Below, piece after piece: positions 40,963 to 45,930 of a stretch of DNA of 64,000 nt; position 1 is the first letter of the stretch; each line of letters starts with the position of its first letter. The notes beneath the pieces were generated by a model. That model saw only the letters and a list, made by a program, of their open reading frames with translations. It was not told the origin of the DNA and did not search any database. Both the position numbers and the translations under genes were made by a program. Source of the stretch: Streptomyces triticagri (GTDB lineage: Bacteria > Actinomycetota > Actinomycetes > Streptomycetales > Streptomycetaceae); contig NZ_QUAK01000075.1 in the NCBI RefSeq assembly GCF_003429565.1, positions 1 through 64,000 of the forward strand, in the 5' to 3' direction.

Positions 40963-41006
40963 GTGTGCTGCCCGGGACGGCCCCGACCCCGGCCCGGGCA
41001 GCACAC
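40963..41006 (+). terminator. Strong hairpin between the substrate and sortase genes
   Basis: GTGTGCTGCCCGGG and its perfect complement CCCGGGCAGCACAC form a 14-bp stem with a 16-nt loop. It may attenuate read-through from the substrate gene into the sortase gene. Confidence 0.75.
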
Positions 41007-41037
41007 CCGACGTCCTGACGATCCGCAGGAGGCTGCC

Positions 41038-41673
41038 GTGGCACACCGTACGAGCGGCAGGGTCGGCTACGTCGAAGGGGTCCTCGTCACGGCACTGGCC
41101 GTCGTCGCCTTCGCCTTCACCAGCGCCGAGCCGATCGGCGGCCCACCGCAGCCCACTGCTGCCGCGGGGCAGACCGCCCAGCAGCCGGCAGGAACGACCG
41201 CCAGCCCGCTCGCCGCCTCCCGGCCGCTACGGGTCGTCGTCCCCGCGATCGGCGTCGACGCGCCGTTGACCGACCTCGGCATCGAGCAGTCGGGCCGCCT
41301 GGCGTCCCCACCCGAGGACGAGCCGGACACGGCCGGCTGGTGGGCCGACGGACCGGCCCCGGGCACCCGCGGCACCGCGATCATCGCCGGGCACGTCGAC
41401 GTCCCCGGCGGCCCCGCCGTCTTCTACAACCTGGGCGCCCTCACCCCGGGCACACCCATCGCCGTCCCCCGCGCCGACGGCACGACCGCCCACTTCCGCA
41501 CCACGAGCGTCGACGTCTACGACGCCGACGACTTCCCCGACGACAAGGTCTACGCCGACACCGACCGCCCCGAACTCCGCCTCATCACCTGCGGCGGCGG
41601 CTACGACAAGAAACGCCGCCAGTACAACGGCAACGTGGTCGTCACCGCCCACCTCACCACGGCCCCCACATGA
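41038..41673 (+). CDS. Class F-type sortase
   Basis: 211 residues from GTG 41038 with AGGAGG 6 nt upstream. One N-terminal TM helix (about 11-30), a Pro/Thr/Gln-rich spacer, then the sortase barrel at about 63-208: catalytic His119 in 'TAIIAGHVD', Cys185 in 'LRLITCGGGYD', and Arg193/194 in 'KKRRQYNGN'. The TLxTC motif reads LITC as in actinobacterial class F enzymes. A membrane-bound transpeptidase joining surface proteins to the wall or processing them; partner probably the gene at 40483. Confidence 0.92.
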   Translation: MAHRTSGRVGYVEGVLVTALAVVAFAFTSAEPIGGPPQPTAAAGQTAQQPAGTTASPLAASRPLRVVVPAIGVDAPLTDLGIEQSGRLASPPEDEPDTAGWWADGPAPGTRGTAIIAGHVDVPGGPAVFYNLGALTPGTPIAVPRADGTTAHFRTTSVDVYDADDFPDDKVYADTDRPELRLITCGGGYDKKRRQYNGNVVVTAHLTTAPT

Positions 41674-42237: not shown

Positions 42238-43173
42238 TCACCCGGCGAAGGGCACCCAGAGGGCCCGCTGATCAGGATTGGTCGGCGGGCCCCATACCAA
42301 TGAACCGTCAATCAGCCCCGGTTTAGGCGCTTCGATCAGGCCAGGTGTCTCCAGAGCGTCCGCCATTTCTTCCAGATACGCCGTCAACGATTCGTACTTG
42401 GGCCAGCGCTCCGCGAACCGGCTCCAGTAGCAGAGCAGGCCAGTCGCTGTGTCCAAGTACAGCCCCGAGCTGAAGTCATCGGCCCGGAAAGAAAGGACGG
42501 GGATCCAGCCAGGCCGCCAGAACGTGAACTCGTCGTCGCCGCGTGGCTGGCGCTCATCCTCCTGTCGCTGAAAATCCATCTCCGTTCGGTGCACCTGCAG
42601 GACGGAACTGAGGCTCATCAAAGCGCGCCTGCCTAGCATGAAGGCGGAGTGACGACTGCTGTGAACGCCCGCGCACAGGCGCCACAAGGCCTGGAGCGGC
42701 GCGGGGACCTCAGCCCCGAGGGCTTCTTCCAGGGCGCGGATCTCGCCCTCGGAAGCGCCTCCTTCCAACAGGGCGTGCGAGTCGGGTGCATGCATGCGCA
42801 GCCAAGACTCGATCCGCCTCCACGCTGCGGTCACCTGCCGCACATGCAGGTGCTCCGCTCGAGGGTCCGATGCTTGTGCTTGGCCCTCAGGAACTTCAGA
42901 GGGCGCGGACATCTGCCCCGCCTCGACGGCCACGATCCGTAGCAATCCCTCCTCGAGCTCCGGCGAGCCGACGGTGTACGTGATGCGGAGGGCGGGGCAG
43001 TCCTCGAACGTCTCCCCGTCAATGTCGGTCTCGTACACGGATGGAGTGCCCGTCGGGCGGCCCAACAGCGGATCGTCCTCCAGCTGCCGAACCAGTATCT
43101 TCAGGGCATATGTGACACCCTGGCCCAGTTCAGCGCAGCGTTGCTGCATTTCCGCAGGCACCTCAACGGCCAA
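42238..43173 (-). CDS. SUKH-family (SMI1/KNR4) protein with an N-terminal RelE-like region
   Basis: 311 residues from TTG 43173, chosen because AGAGGAGA lies 5 nt upstream; a GTG at 43215 would add 14 residues. Residues 1-85 ('EMQQRCAELGQGVTYALKIL', 'GEEF'-less but with 'RITYTVGSPELEEGLLRIVAVEAG') resemble RelE/ParE-fold plasmid proteins. Residues 105-311 form the SUKH fold: 'AWRRIESWLRMHAPDSHALL', 'GASEGEIRALEEALGAEVPAPLQALWRLCAG', 'WIPVLSFRADDFSSGLYLD'. SUKH proteins commonly serve as immunity proteins against polymorphic toxins. GC is lower than in neighbouring genes, suggesting transfer. No toxin gene is adjacent. Confidence 0.75.
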   Translation of the reverse strand: MAVEVPAEMQQRCAELGQGVTYALKILVRQLEDDPLLGRPTGTPSVYETDIDGETFEDCPALRITYTVGSPELEEGLLRIVAVEAGQMSAPSEVPEGQAQASDPRAEHLHVRQVTAAWRRIESWLRMHAPDSHALLEGGASEGEIRALEEALGAEVPAPLQALWRLCAGVHSSRHSAFMLGRRALMSLSSVLQVHRTEMDFQRQEDERQPRGDDEFTFWRPGWIPVLSFRADDFSSGLYLDTATGLLCYWSRFAERWPKYESLTAYLEEMADALETPGLIEAPKPGLIDGSLVWGPPTNPDQRALWVPFAG

Positions 43174-43745
43174 AATCTTCTCCTCTTTCGCTCCAGCGCC
43201 ACACCGTATGCGCACGGGCGCCGTGGCTCAGGGTTCAGTGACTGAGCTAACACCCCCGCCGATTCCATGAAGCCCGGCACCGCAATTACAGCGACGCAGG
43301 ATCTAGGTGTGCTGTCACCAACGTCCAGGGACAGCACAGTTAGCCGCCAAGGACAGCATCGGCTCGCGCATCACGCAGAGGCACAGCGGACCTTCGGCTG
43401 GCGCGAAGCCGGTGACGCTCCGCAATGGCCACTTCGTGCGCGACCTGGACACCTACGGCCTCCTCACAGCAGGGATCGCCTCGGTCACCGTTGCGGTGAA
43501 CACCACGGCCCACCCCGTCAAGCACGACCTCGACCGTTTCCGACGCATCGGCGCCGTACTGCTGTCAGATGCCTGATCGGAGCGGCGGGTTCTCCGCGTT
43601 TTCCATGATCCTTGTCATACGTGGATTCGCTTCACCGGCTGCCCGCGGGGATGTGAAGGTCTGTGCGAGCCACCGCCCTGACCAGGCGTGGCCGCACTCG
43701 CTCCCACACCGGGTGGGGCGAGCGACCAACACAGGGGGAACCACC
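43174..43745. other. Intergenic region with hairpins and a possible short ORF remnant
   Basis: GC-poorer than the core. GTGCTGTC (43309-43316) and GACAGCAC (43330-43337) form an 8-bp hairpin. From GTG 43412 to the stop at 43576, 54 codons (VTLRNGHFVRDLDTYGLLTA...) look protein-like but match nothing I know; probably a remnant. At 43697-43722 CTCGC-T-CCCAC pairs with GTGGG-GCGAG, a hairpin in the likely 5' leader of the next gene. Confidence 0.4.
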
Positions 43746-44267
43746 GTGTTCACGATTACTACGCGCCGCACTGCCATGGCCTCGATAGCCGGCATCACCA
43801 GTGTGGCCCTGCTCGCCGTCGTAGCGCCCAGTGCATCGGCCGCCGACGACATCCGGGCCAAGGCCACGACGACGGCCGCCGCGGCACCGGCCCAGTCCCA
43901 GGAACTGACCGCCGAACAGCGCCAGTTCATCGAGCAGGGCATGGGCAAGGATGCCATGGCCGAGATCGAGCAGGGCATGAGCGAGAACGCCTCCGGCGAC
44001 GTCCAGACCCGCGCCTTCCCGATCGCGGCCGCAGCCATAGCCGCGGCATCCTGGTGCGCCAAGGGCGCACTGGGCAGCATCCCGACCTCGGTACTCAGCG
44101 ACATCGCGGCCGGAAAGGCCTCCAGCAAGAAGACCTACGTCCGCAACGCCATCATCGGCTGCCTCGGCGGCGAGATCGGCGGCGTCGTCTGGAAGTTCCT
44201 GCCGGGCTGGGTCAAGGACAAGGCCGTTAACATGGTGATCGCCTTCATCATCAAGTACATCCGCTGA
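43746..44267 (+). CDS. Secreted bacteriocin-like protein (unrecognised family)
   Basis: 173 residues from GTG 43746 (GGGGGAACCACC upstream). Signal peptide 1-32 (ends ASAA). Residues 33-88 are a hydrophilic, Ala/Gln/Glu-rich segment like a propeptide. Residues 90-173 look like a processed core: hydrophobic 'FPIAAAAIAAASWCAKGALG' (91-110), two cysteines (104 and 139), a Gly-rich 'GGEIGGVVW' and a cationic, amphipathic end 'LPGWVKDKAVNMVIAFIIKY'. The pattern of signal, prosegment and membrane-active core with one possible disulfide suggests a pore-forming bacteriocin. The next gene, 35 bp on, is a small multi-TM protein that could give immunity. Function is inferred from architecture only. Confidence 0.72.
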   Translation: MFTITTRRTAMASIAGITSVALLAVVAPSASAADDIRAKATTTAAAAPAQSQELTAEQRQFIEQGMGKDAMAEIEQGMSENASGDVQTRAFPIAAAAIAAASWCAKGALGSIPTSVLSDIAAGKASSKKTYVRNAIIGCLGGEIGGVVWKFLPGWVKDKAVNMVIAFIIKYIR

Positions 44268-44301
44268 GGTCGTCCAGGCCCGACCAGCACAAGAGGCGCG
44301 T

Positions 44302-44667
44302 ATGGCCTACCTGTTCATCTTCGGCTGTTTCTTCCTGCTGGGCCTGGCCGGTGCGCTGGCGGCCCGCACGGGATATCGCGGCAAGGTCTGTGACCGGTCG
44401 CACGGCTACGAAGTCCCGGCCGAGGTCAAGTACGACCCCGCTCTGCGGAAACGGGCGAACGACCTGGTGGCCTTCTGGTGCACCGGCGCATCCGCGCTCG
44501 GTTTCGCACCGCTCGTACCCATCGGCAGCGTCCTACTGAGCGGCGGCGGCAAGTCCGTCTCGACCTGGGGCCTCGCAGCCTTCGCGCTGTACGGCCTGGT
44601 GGTGGCGACCGTGGGCATCTACCCGTTCGAGAAGATCAAGCAACTCGGCGACTCAACAAAGCGCTGA
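44302..44667 (+). CDS. Small multi-TM membrane protein (candidate immunity protein)
   Basis: 121 residues from ATG 44302, AGAGG 6 nt upstream, 34 bp after the bacteriocin-like gene, so likely one transcript. TM helices near 2-21, 55-80 and 88-108; a soluble loop 25-53 with 'CDRSHGYEVPAEVKYDPALR'. Ends with a Lys-rich tail. No known family. Its size, topology and position match immunity proteins of pore-forming bacteriocins, but nothing else supports that. Confidence 0.65.
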   Translation: MAYLFIFGCFFLLGLAGALAARTGYRGKVCDRSHGYEVPAEVKYDPALRKRANDLVAFWCTGASALGFAPLVPIGSVLLSGGGKSVSTWGLAAFALYGLVVATVGIYPFEKIKQLGDSTKR

Positions 44668-44676
44668 GCCTTCGGC

Positions 44677-44695
44677 ACCGGCCGGCCTCGCCGGT
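44677..44695 (+). terminator. Hairpin after the candidate immunity gene
   Basis: ACCGGC and GCCGGT pair around a 7-nt loop, 10 bp after the stop codon. Confidence 0.45.
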
Positions 44696-45473
44696 CTCCC
44701 GCACCGCGACGGGAGATCGGCGACCAAGGCCTGCGGACGCGGCCGGAACCGTCGACGCCGCCATCCGCGAGAACCACTGGCCGCCGACGAGGCGTTCCGT
44801 CATCACCCGCCGCGCACCCAAGGAAGCACAGATCCTCCCCGCCCACGCGGGATGATCCACCAAGAAGCGTCCGGACAGCGCTCTTCCTCCCTCCCCGCAG
44901 TCACCGGCCCAGGAGGAGCCGAGGACGGTATGCGCGTGAGTCCACAACAACATCTGGCACACCAACTTCCCCCCCCCCCCCGCGGCAGGCCTTCGCGCAT
45001 GTATTCCGCTATAACGCCGGCCAGAACGACGAGCCTCCCTCGGCGGCGCGGCGCTCGACATGCATAAGCCAACGCGGCCGCACATCCATCCGATACCGTT
45101 CCCCATGTCCCCACCCACCTGGGGGTGTTTCGCTCAGGCGCGCTTCGACATACTCGTCCACTTTGCACTGCGCGCCAGCGCGGGGTCGTGAGCGGCCGCC
45201 AGCTCCAGCGCCGAGGCCCGATGGACCCTGACGGCACTGGGGTACTCCGAGGCGGCGGGCGCCCGAGTCGATGGCAAGTGGTCGCTGCCAACTCCGCGCC
45301 CGCCGTCGCACGTTCCCACGTTCCGTGCGCCCCGTCCAGGGTTCGAACCCGCGCACACTCCGGCTCGTACCCTCACAAGCCAACCCGTCCCGTTGCACAT
45401 CCATTGCACAAACGCCCGGGCGCTCCCGGGAAACCGCAGGTCACAGCGGGACACCTTACGCAACGCAAAACGA
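44696..45473. other. Scrambled non-coding region with a C13 run and a T-loop-like motif
   Basis: No intact gene. A run of 13 C lies at 44969-44981. On the minus strand, pieces that look coding change frame repeatedly (for example around 45140-45300, ending ALARSAKWTSMSKRA), suggesting a decayed gene of unknown kind. The 12-bp palindrome GGGTTCGAACCC at 45339-45350 resembles a tRNA T-arm, but the flanks do not fold into a tRNA. TTGCACATCCATTGCAC follows at about 45393-45409. These may be attachment-site debris of a lost integrative element. Confidence 0.45.
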
Positions 45474-45510: not shown

Positions 45511-45930
45511 GGCGGACGAGTCGGCCTGTACGCCGGGTTCTGTCGCTCCGGGGTCTTGCGGCCCGGGAGGAGACGGCCATCCATCTGGGACCGGCATTGC
45601 TGTCGGCCTCGTGCGGTCTACCCGCGGACTCGGGCGGGCAGCCCTCGGTCGTCCGCGCAGGATCCTCTCTCGAGGGTCCCTCTTGACCTTGCTCCGGGTG
45701 GGGTTTACCTAGCCGCCTGGGTCACCCCAGGCGCTGGTGGTCTCTTACACCACCGTTTCACCCTTACCGGGATCCGTACGCGTACGGTCCCCGGCGGTCT
45801 GTTTTCTGTGGCACTTTCCCGCGGGTCACCCCGGGTGGGCGTTACCCACCACCCTGCCCTGTGGAGCCCGGACGTTCCTCGACGTCGATCCGGAGATCGG
45901 CGCCGCGGCCGTCCGGCCGGCTCGTCCGCC
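45511..45930 (-). ncRNA. rnpB: RNase P RNA (bacterial type A)
   Basis: On the minus strand the 5' end GGCGGACGAGCCGGCCGG pairs with the 3' end GGCCGACTCGTCCGCC (helix P1). The conserved cores are present: GAGGAACGTCCGGGCTCCAC (CR I/P3-P4 side), GGGTAACGCCCACC, AAAGTGCCACAGAAAACAGA, GGTAAGGGTGAAACGGTG, AGAGGGACCC..., and the universal 3' CR V AGACCGC...GACAGAACCCGGCGTACAGG. Length about 420 nt fits Streptomyces. It is the catalytic subunit that matures tRNA 5' ends. Ends are judged from the P1 helix, plus or minus a few bases. Confidence 0.96.

Follow-up and report, generated by a model that had tools for sequence, protein, structure and literature searches.

A putative two-gene bacteriocin-immunity cassette in Streptomyces

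What is the function of two small adjacent genes in Streptomyces triticagri whose products resemble a secreted precursor and a membrane partner? The genes, which we term P1 and P2, lie 34 nt apart on the same strand within a stretch of 64,000 nucleotides (contig NZ_QUAK01000075.1, positions 1 to 64,000; hereafter the window). An earlier note, made by a model that saw only the letters of this DNA, had proposed that they encode a bacteriocin and its immunity protein. Its coordinates, the GTG start of P1, the lengths of the two products (173 and 121 residues) and the intergenic gap were all exact. On comparative sequence analysis, we assign a probability of about 0.7 to the reading that P1 and P2 form a bacteriocin-immunity cassette in Streptomyces, unnamed in the libraries searched. 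The earlier proposal gains support from the linkage of the two genes at 9/9 intact loci, from decay that affects one side of the pair, from the lack of a significant match to any known family and from the prediction of a helical core.

Once duplicates were removed, the intact P1 loci numbered nine, from eight Streptomyces genomes: the window, S. cahuitamycinicus (G098), G229 (twice), G033, S. candidus (G521), S. microflavus (G589), D2-8 and G526. At every one of these loci P2 lies downstream of P1 by 21-34 nt on the same strand. The defining layout of a bacteriocin-immunity pair, namely a gene of secreted type followed by a small membrane gene with which it is co-inherited, is therefore present in 9/9 loci. 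The earlier note had raised the question of whether the first gene regularly occurs without the second; among the loci found there was no intact P1 lacking P2, and the only P1 without P2 (in G123) is frameshifted. Furthermore, the P1 and P2 distance matrices are correlated (Mantel r 0.66, 0/5000 permutations).

The nine loci fall into approximately seven flanking contexts, as judged from predicted neighbours within ~5-7 kb. S. cahuitamycinicus, D2-8 and one G229 copy have a common flanking gene family, while the other six share none with another intact locus. No third gene was common across the contexts in this comparison, which relied on a heuristic codon-composition gene caller that misses some genes, including P1 at several loci. 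An argument made previously from the neighbourhood (a SUKH protein and a sortase, in a region where inter-strain conflict genes gather) was consequently not supported.

P1 is rare. In 295 genomes of the genus it was matched in seven and was intact in four (five loci, two of them in G229). The remaining three matches comprise the frameshifted copy in G123, a remnant in G280 and a hit in G068 that was taken as chance (E value 1.6e-5, 25% identity, an in-frame stop). P2 was matched in 10 of the same 295 genomes. Among 394 genomes of the family (the genus, family and order samples overlap), P1 was matched in five (four intact, one remnant). P2 was matched in 16 of these genomes, spread over 2 of 17 genera; 13 of the matches are full or nearly full length and three degenerate or weak. 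P2 relatives were found in 10 of 137 genomes of the order, every one in the genus of the window. Partial, degenerate or weak copies (G096, G286, G262, G591, G612 and G414) were left out of the intact P2 set. A scan of genome contigs for P1 returned S. candidus, S. cahuitamycinicus, S. microflavus and Streptomyces sp. D2-8. In a phylum sample of 296 genomes, the only convincing P1 match was in the window's own genome. Twelve others (E 0.0019-0.041) were rejected; these begin within the first 35 profile positions, cover mainly the signal and prosegment and, with one exception, end by profile position 82. In G012, one of these rejected matches overlaps the beginning of a hit to the SdpC family and was taken as signal-peptide similarity.

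The architecture of P1 is that expected of a precursor in three parts. The N-terminal 33 residues are signal-like (grand average of hydropathy, GRAVY, 1.18), the following 56 form a prosegment with an isoelectric point (pI) of 4.3 and GRAVY of -0.78, and the remaining 84 constitute a core with a pI of 9.9, GRAVY of 0.72 and 10 Lys and Arg residues against 3 Asp and Glu. Composition and alignment agree on this division, as described earlier, and on cysteines at positions 104 and 139. The description of the core as Gly-rich held only modestly (9 Gly, with 16 Ala, among 84 residues), whereas its hydrophobic and cationic character was borne out. Cys104 and Cys139 are the sole cysteines of P1 and are invariant in 9/9 intact homologues, all of which possess a core of 84 residues with a charge of +7 or +8 and cysteines at core positions 15 and 50. 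An Arg7-Arg8 pair (window 43764-43769) is likewise invariant in 9/9 signal segments, a possible sign of twin-arginine (Tat) export. The sequence at the core boundary varies among homologues, reading QTR/AFP or GGF/AFP-like. The start assigned to P1 is supported by the homologues, which begin in an identical alignment column, three of them also with GTG.

The selection acting on P1 changes at the same boundary. The ratio of nonsynonymous to synonymous substitution rates (dN/dS), given as pooled Nei-Gojobori estimates over all pairs among the nine intact loci, was 0.43 for the signal, 0.59 for the prosegment (residues 34-88), 0.087 for the core (90-173) and 0.23 (0.233) for P2. Since dN/dS lies below 1 for both genes, P1 and P2 are more than chance open reading frames. 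The shift from 0.59 to 0.087 coincides with the division into prosegment and core drawn by the earlier note. Additionally, a changepoint in residue identity was located after residue 89, with a mean of 0.72 before and 0.96 after (0/2000 permutations as strong). A disposable prosegment attached to a functional core would be the natural reading of this pattern.

The two genes do not decay alike. At three loci (G280, G202 and G007) P2 retains an open frame beside a remnant of P1. In G280 the remnant comprises the last 25 residues (E about 1.7e-12); in G202 it is a 12-residue piece and in G007 a 17-residue C-terminal piece, both a short distance before P2 and oriented alike. At eight further loci (G444, G379, G486, G394, G452, G311, G295 and G321) a full or nearly full-length P2 stands alone, with no trace of P1 above background within the ~1.5 kb searched on either side. 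Not all of these are independent, as G394 and G452, and the three genomes of a second genus (g2), look like related copies. Beside a gene that we take from its sequence to encode a dihydrouridine synthase, S. microflavus carries the pair, G202 the remnant with P2 and G444 P2 alone; the sequence beside the degenerate P2 of G286 and G591 suggests that they share this site. Another site is common to G280, which has P2 with its P1 remnant, and G123, which has the frameshifted P1 without P2. Six solo P2 genes gave dN/dS of 0.20-0.55 against their two nearest paired relatives, pairwise values that partly reflect the paired lineages (paired genes gave 0.10-0.60 against their nearest paired relative). 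Loss of the first gene with retention of the second is expected of a toxin and its immunity gene, and this pattern thus supports the toxin-immunity reading.

Neither protein could be placed in a described family. P1 and P2 of the window matched no family at E ≤1 in Pfam or NCBIfam; across the nine P1 homologues, the best scores were E 0.15 for PF04065 (in 1/9 members) and E 0.33 for TcpD_dom (in 5/9). Against PDB sequences, the best values for P1 were E 0.39 and 0.88, neither significant, and P2 had no match up to E 10. In PHROGs, the best values were E 0.1 for P1, 0.032 for the core alone and 0.35 for P2. The family that the earlier note did not recognise is, accordingly, without a significant match in Pfam, NCBIfam or the PDB sequences, and P1 was not assigned to any known non-toxic secreted family. 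We recognised no description of the pair in the literature searched, which is not proof that it is undescribed. By analogy, what is new would be the sequence family, unnamed in the libraries searched, while its mode of working would be one already known.

Several candidate assignments were rejected. Two type IV Cas5 models in PADLOC (E 0.004 and 0.015) matched parts of the P1 prosegment and core and were taken as chance. DUF998 matched 10/19 P2 members (best E 1.1e-4) and was not adopted; it scored 1.8 and 8.6 bits against the P2 of the window, for a cut-off of 30. SfLAP (E 0.0046) and DUF4405 (E 0.033), each matching a single P2 member, were not adopted either. A mobile-element origin was set aside, as neither protein matched plasmid or phage records or had a confirmed relative in viral contigs.

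Structure prediction placed five helices in the P1 core (residues 91-109, 114-121, 129-144, 146-151 and 154-172). The core is thus predicted to be helical and not disordered, a point on which the earlier proposal partly depended, with predicted local distance difference test (pLDDT) scores of 61-84 in ten-residue blocks; this answer is weakened by a shallow alignment of nine close sequences and a whole-chain mean of 57, the remaining four models scoring lower. The P2 model (mean pLDDT 82.7) comprises three long hydrophobic helices, one short helix and a C-terminal helix, in keeping with its earlier description as a protein of three transmembrane segments. Searches of the PDB with Foldseek returned best E values of 1.7 for P1 and 1.4 for P2. 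A second look at P1 gave a best Z of 3.9 (root-mean-square deviation 3.5 over 79 residues) to an insect odorant-binding protein, which is uninformative for a helical model of low confidence. None of this shows that either protein has a new fold. P2-like genes without P1 were also noted in genus g2 (G311, G295 and G321; L052, L053 and L054), near a gene whose product presumably is an electron-transfer flavoprotein subunit.

The intact loci have a common upstream footprint. In 9/9 loci the P1 start is preceded, at a distance of 122-153 nt, by a palindrome (RTGA-N6-TCAY). Its half-sites are ATGA/TCAT in the window, where both have changed together, and GTGA-N6-TCAC in several relatives; by itself the palindrome is not rare (3 in the window vs 1.41 expected). 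A second box (GGGATG..RRRTC-like) starts 42-43 nt after the palindrome start in the eight loci scored. For the variant in S. microflavus, scoring used a pattern of its own; in the second G229 copy (G229b) the alignment shows a similar box that falls outside the pattern. The two-box composite was found only in loci containing intact P1 (892,510 bases, with both strands and overlapping loci counted), using a pattern that was derived from those loci and that misses G229b. The palindrome is likely an operator or activator site, possibly a Streptomyces Crp site, and the second box is likely a promoter element. Downstream of P2, the hairpin described earlier was found with a stem of 14 bp. The folding energy of 44665-44725 is -35.5 kcal/mol (z -3.29, 0/200 shuffles as stable); the stem-loop has no U-tract, and a terminator scan found nothing at that place.

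How might such a pair act? In the mechanism we propose, the N-terminal signal would send P1 out of the cell, and the acidic prosegment would keep it harmless or soluble. Proteolysis near residue 89/90 would then free the 84-residue core (cationic, mostly hydrophobic and predicted to be helical), which a Cys104-Cys139 disulfide would probably staple. The freed core would insert into the membranes of susceptible and probably related bacteria and disrupt them, perhaps by forming pores, whilst P2 in the membrane of the producer would block it. The pair would be expressed from its own upstream control region and end at a terminator-like hairpin, its chromosomal place differing between species. Membrane disruption is the likeliest mode of action, although a less certain step, for which we consider the odds about even. 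Slightly better than even are the odds of the complete proposal: an unrecognised two-gene preprobacteriocin family in which a latent precursor yields a disulfide-stapled, 84-residue helical core that kills competitors, with no maturation or export genes travelling with the pair, and in which the P2 immunity family also survives as toxin-free resistance genes in Streptomycetaceae.

A number of observations weigh against a bacteriocin-immunity cassette. No homologue with a tested function was detected, and the P1 model is of low confidence overall. The core is nearly invariant, whereas many bacteriocins diversify; its target might be conserved, or P1 might have a role other than as a toxin. Among the genes that the heuristic caller predicted, none for a dedicated protease or exporter was seen to accompany the pair. 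The remnants in G202 and G007 are individually weak, with E values of 4.5e-4 and 0.002, respectively, in one search and 6e-4 and 0.037 in another, both against very small databases. The two-box composite is missing from the 900 nt upstream of P2 at all nine solo-P2 or remnant loci examined. Finally, P2 is more widespread than P1 (16 vs 5 of 394 genomes, counting degenerate copies and remnants) and in genus g2 occurs without it; P2 may therefore belong to an older membrane family with a role of its own.

By analogy, the closest functional precedent for P1 and P2 is SdpC/SdpI of Bacillus subtilis. SdpC is a secreted precursor whose hydrophobic C-terminal part becomes a 42-residue toxin, SDP, that collapses the proton motive force (PMC6818787). 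The same source describes an integral membrane immunity protein (SdpI), strains that keep only immunity or regulator genes at one locus, and a second toxin-immunity precedent in this species, the YIT toxin with YitQ (PMC6818787). By the tests run, among which there was no SdpA profile, P1 and P2 nonetheless appear to lie outside the SdpC family. The family model TIGR04032 matched neither the P1 of the window at E ≤1 nor the nine homologues up to E 10, a limit that is only nominal since HMMER filters drop most matches above ~0.1. The model was absent from the window's own genome (0/1), while the B. subtilis control matched. When the P1 profile was compared by hhalign with five SdpC relatives from Streptomycetaceae (four of them below the curated cut-off), the probability was 0.1 over one aligned column. 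Unlike SDP, which has the SdpB maturation gene beside the toxin, the pair has no SdpB-like gene on its contig (C201). The P1 core is twice the length of SDP (84 vs 42 residues), and its cysteines are 35 apart. SdpI is a member of PF13630, which none of 19 P2 relatives matched up to E 10 and which was found in 0/41 genomes including the window's own, whereas 5/14 controls matched.

Two observations on SDP-like genes were made in passing. SdpB-like matches below the cut-off (E 8.7e-10 and 1.5e-4) occur elsewhere in the window's genome within one long frame, C123:7639-8496 (L087 and L088). Relatives of the SdpC family (TIGR04032; L073-L077) are present in 5/131 Streptomycetaceae genomes, one of them scoring over the curated cut-off; these are possibly little-studied SDP-like toxins of Streptomyces.

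The resemblance to SDP raises the best-placed alternative, in which P1 is a secreted self- or sibling-inhibiting developmental factor, akin to a cannibalism toxin, and P2 is the resistance protein or sensor. The anatomy of the pair parallels SdpC/SdpI, the cannibalism toxin system of B. subtilis (PMC6818787). The conserved upstream footprint implies regulation, and a near-invariant core fits a conserved self target. The sparse occurrence of the pair (intact P1 in 4/295 genus genomes) and its varying location, however, fit an accessory weapon better, and we regard this alternative as unlikely.

The near-invariant core could also suit a secreted structural or surface-active protein with a role like that of chaplins or rodlins, P2 being its assembly or anchoring partner: P1 is a hydrophobic Streptomyces protein of secreted type with two cysteines. 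We consider this improbable. P1 has no significant Pfam or NCBIfam match and is rare in the genus, its acidic and weakly constrained prosegment suggests a part that is discarded, and retention of P2 after loss of P1 would be unexpected of a partner protein. Less probable again is a secreted peptide signal or inhibitor with P2 as the membrane receptor. A receptor might well be more widespread than its ligand, as P2 is, and the gene order and the precursor with a separable core would be the same, but no known signalling domain was found in P2 and an 84-residue hydrophobic cationic core would, in our judgement, be unusual for a signal. That P1 and P2 are functionally unrelated neighbours by descent only, as the small number of intact loci (nine, three of them with a common flank) might allow, is very improbable given that the pair keeps together in about seven contexts with a gap of 21-34 nt and correlated divergence.

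Returning to the bacteriocin-immunity reading, P1 can be set beside other bacteriocin types. Closticin 574 and the propionicin PAMP-type preprobacteriocins are secreted precursors whose C-terminal part is freed by proteolysis, which the processing proposed for P1 resembles. Double-glycine class II bacteriocins have a short leader ending in Gly-Gly, whereas the N-terminus of P1 is long, hydrophobic and signal-like and is followed by a prosegment of 56 residues. No third gene that might be a peptidase-containing ABC (ATP-binding cassette) exporter is shared across the contexts, the neighbours having been compared without exporter-directed profiling. Aureocin A53-like bacteriocins may share a likeness of fold or composition with P1. 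They are leaderless and active on translation, in contrast to P1 with its signal-like segment and prosegment in 9/9 homologues. Such leaderless antimicrobial peptides have been mined from Actinomycetota (PMC11580447).

Lactococcin 972 and mediterrocin, as described in PMC12345188, have a cleavable N-terminal signal predicted to be Sec-dependent and a proposed membrane immunity protein, likely a seven-transmembrane DUF1430 protein; they are of beta-sheet structure, with only signal cleavage seen. The likeness to P1 and P2 lies in the N-terminal signal (or signal-like) segment and the proposed membrane immunity partner. P1 differs in possessing a prosegment and in being predicted as all-helical by a model of low to moderate confidence. 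The Pfam and NCBIfam scans, whose libraries presumably hold the lactococcin 972 family model, gave no match to that family for P1.

Table 1. Features of the P1-P2 locus, in window coordinates.
Feature	Position	Strand	Evidence
P1, predicted pre-pro-bacteriocin, 173 aa, GTG start	43746..44267	+	open reading frame, homologue alignment, dN/dS
P1 residues 1-33, signal-peptide-like segment with A-x-A-like end	43746..43844	+	sequence reading
P1 residues 34-89, acidic, weakly constrained prosegment	43845..44012	+	dN/dS, composition
P1 residues 90-173, hydrophobic cationic core, proposed active toxin	44013..44264	+	dN/dS, model, composition
P2, 121-aa membrane protein, proposed immunity protein	44302..44667	+	model, dN/dS
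Palindrome ATGA-N6-TCAT, likely operator or activator site	43605..43618	+	conserved in relatives
Second upstream box GGGATGTGAAGGTC, likely promoter element	43648..43661	+	conserved in relatives
Stem-loop (14 bp) downstream of P2 and lacking a U-tract, likely terminator	44688..44723	+	folding energy against shuffles

Other features lie close to the pair in the window. A SUKH-1 gene (42238-43215, minus strand; PF09346, E 4.5e-7) and a sortase gene (40963-41673, plus strand; PF04203, E 5.8e-22) are nearby; neither was seen beside the pair in the other contexts compared. The RNase P RNA gene (45513-45924, minus strand; RF00010, 279.9 bits) lies ~850 bp downstream of P2, and between the two is a run of 13 C (44969-44981) that may be a sequencing error or a relic.

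Streptomyces have been mined mainly for small molecules, and a gene-encoded family of protein toxins with an immunity gene would, if true, represent a new weapon in this genus. Given the selection pattern, the remnants and the solo P2 genes, the toxin-immunity hypothesis lends itself to direct testing, and a unit of two genes is easy to test. The common upstream footprint, furthermore, may reveal when the toxin is produced.
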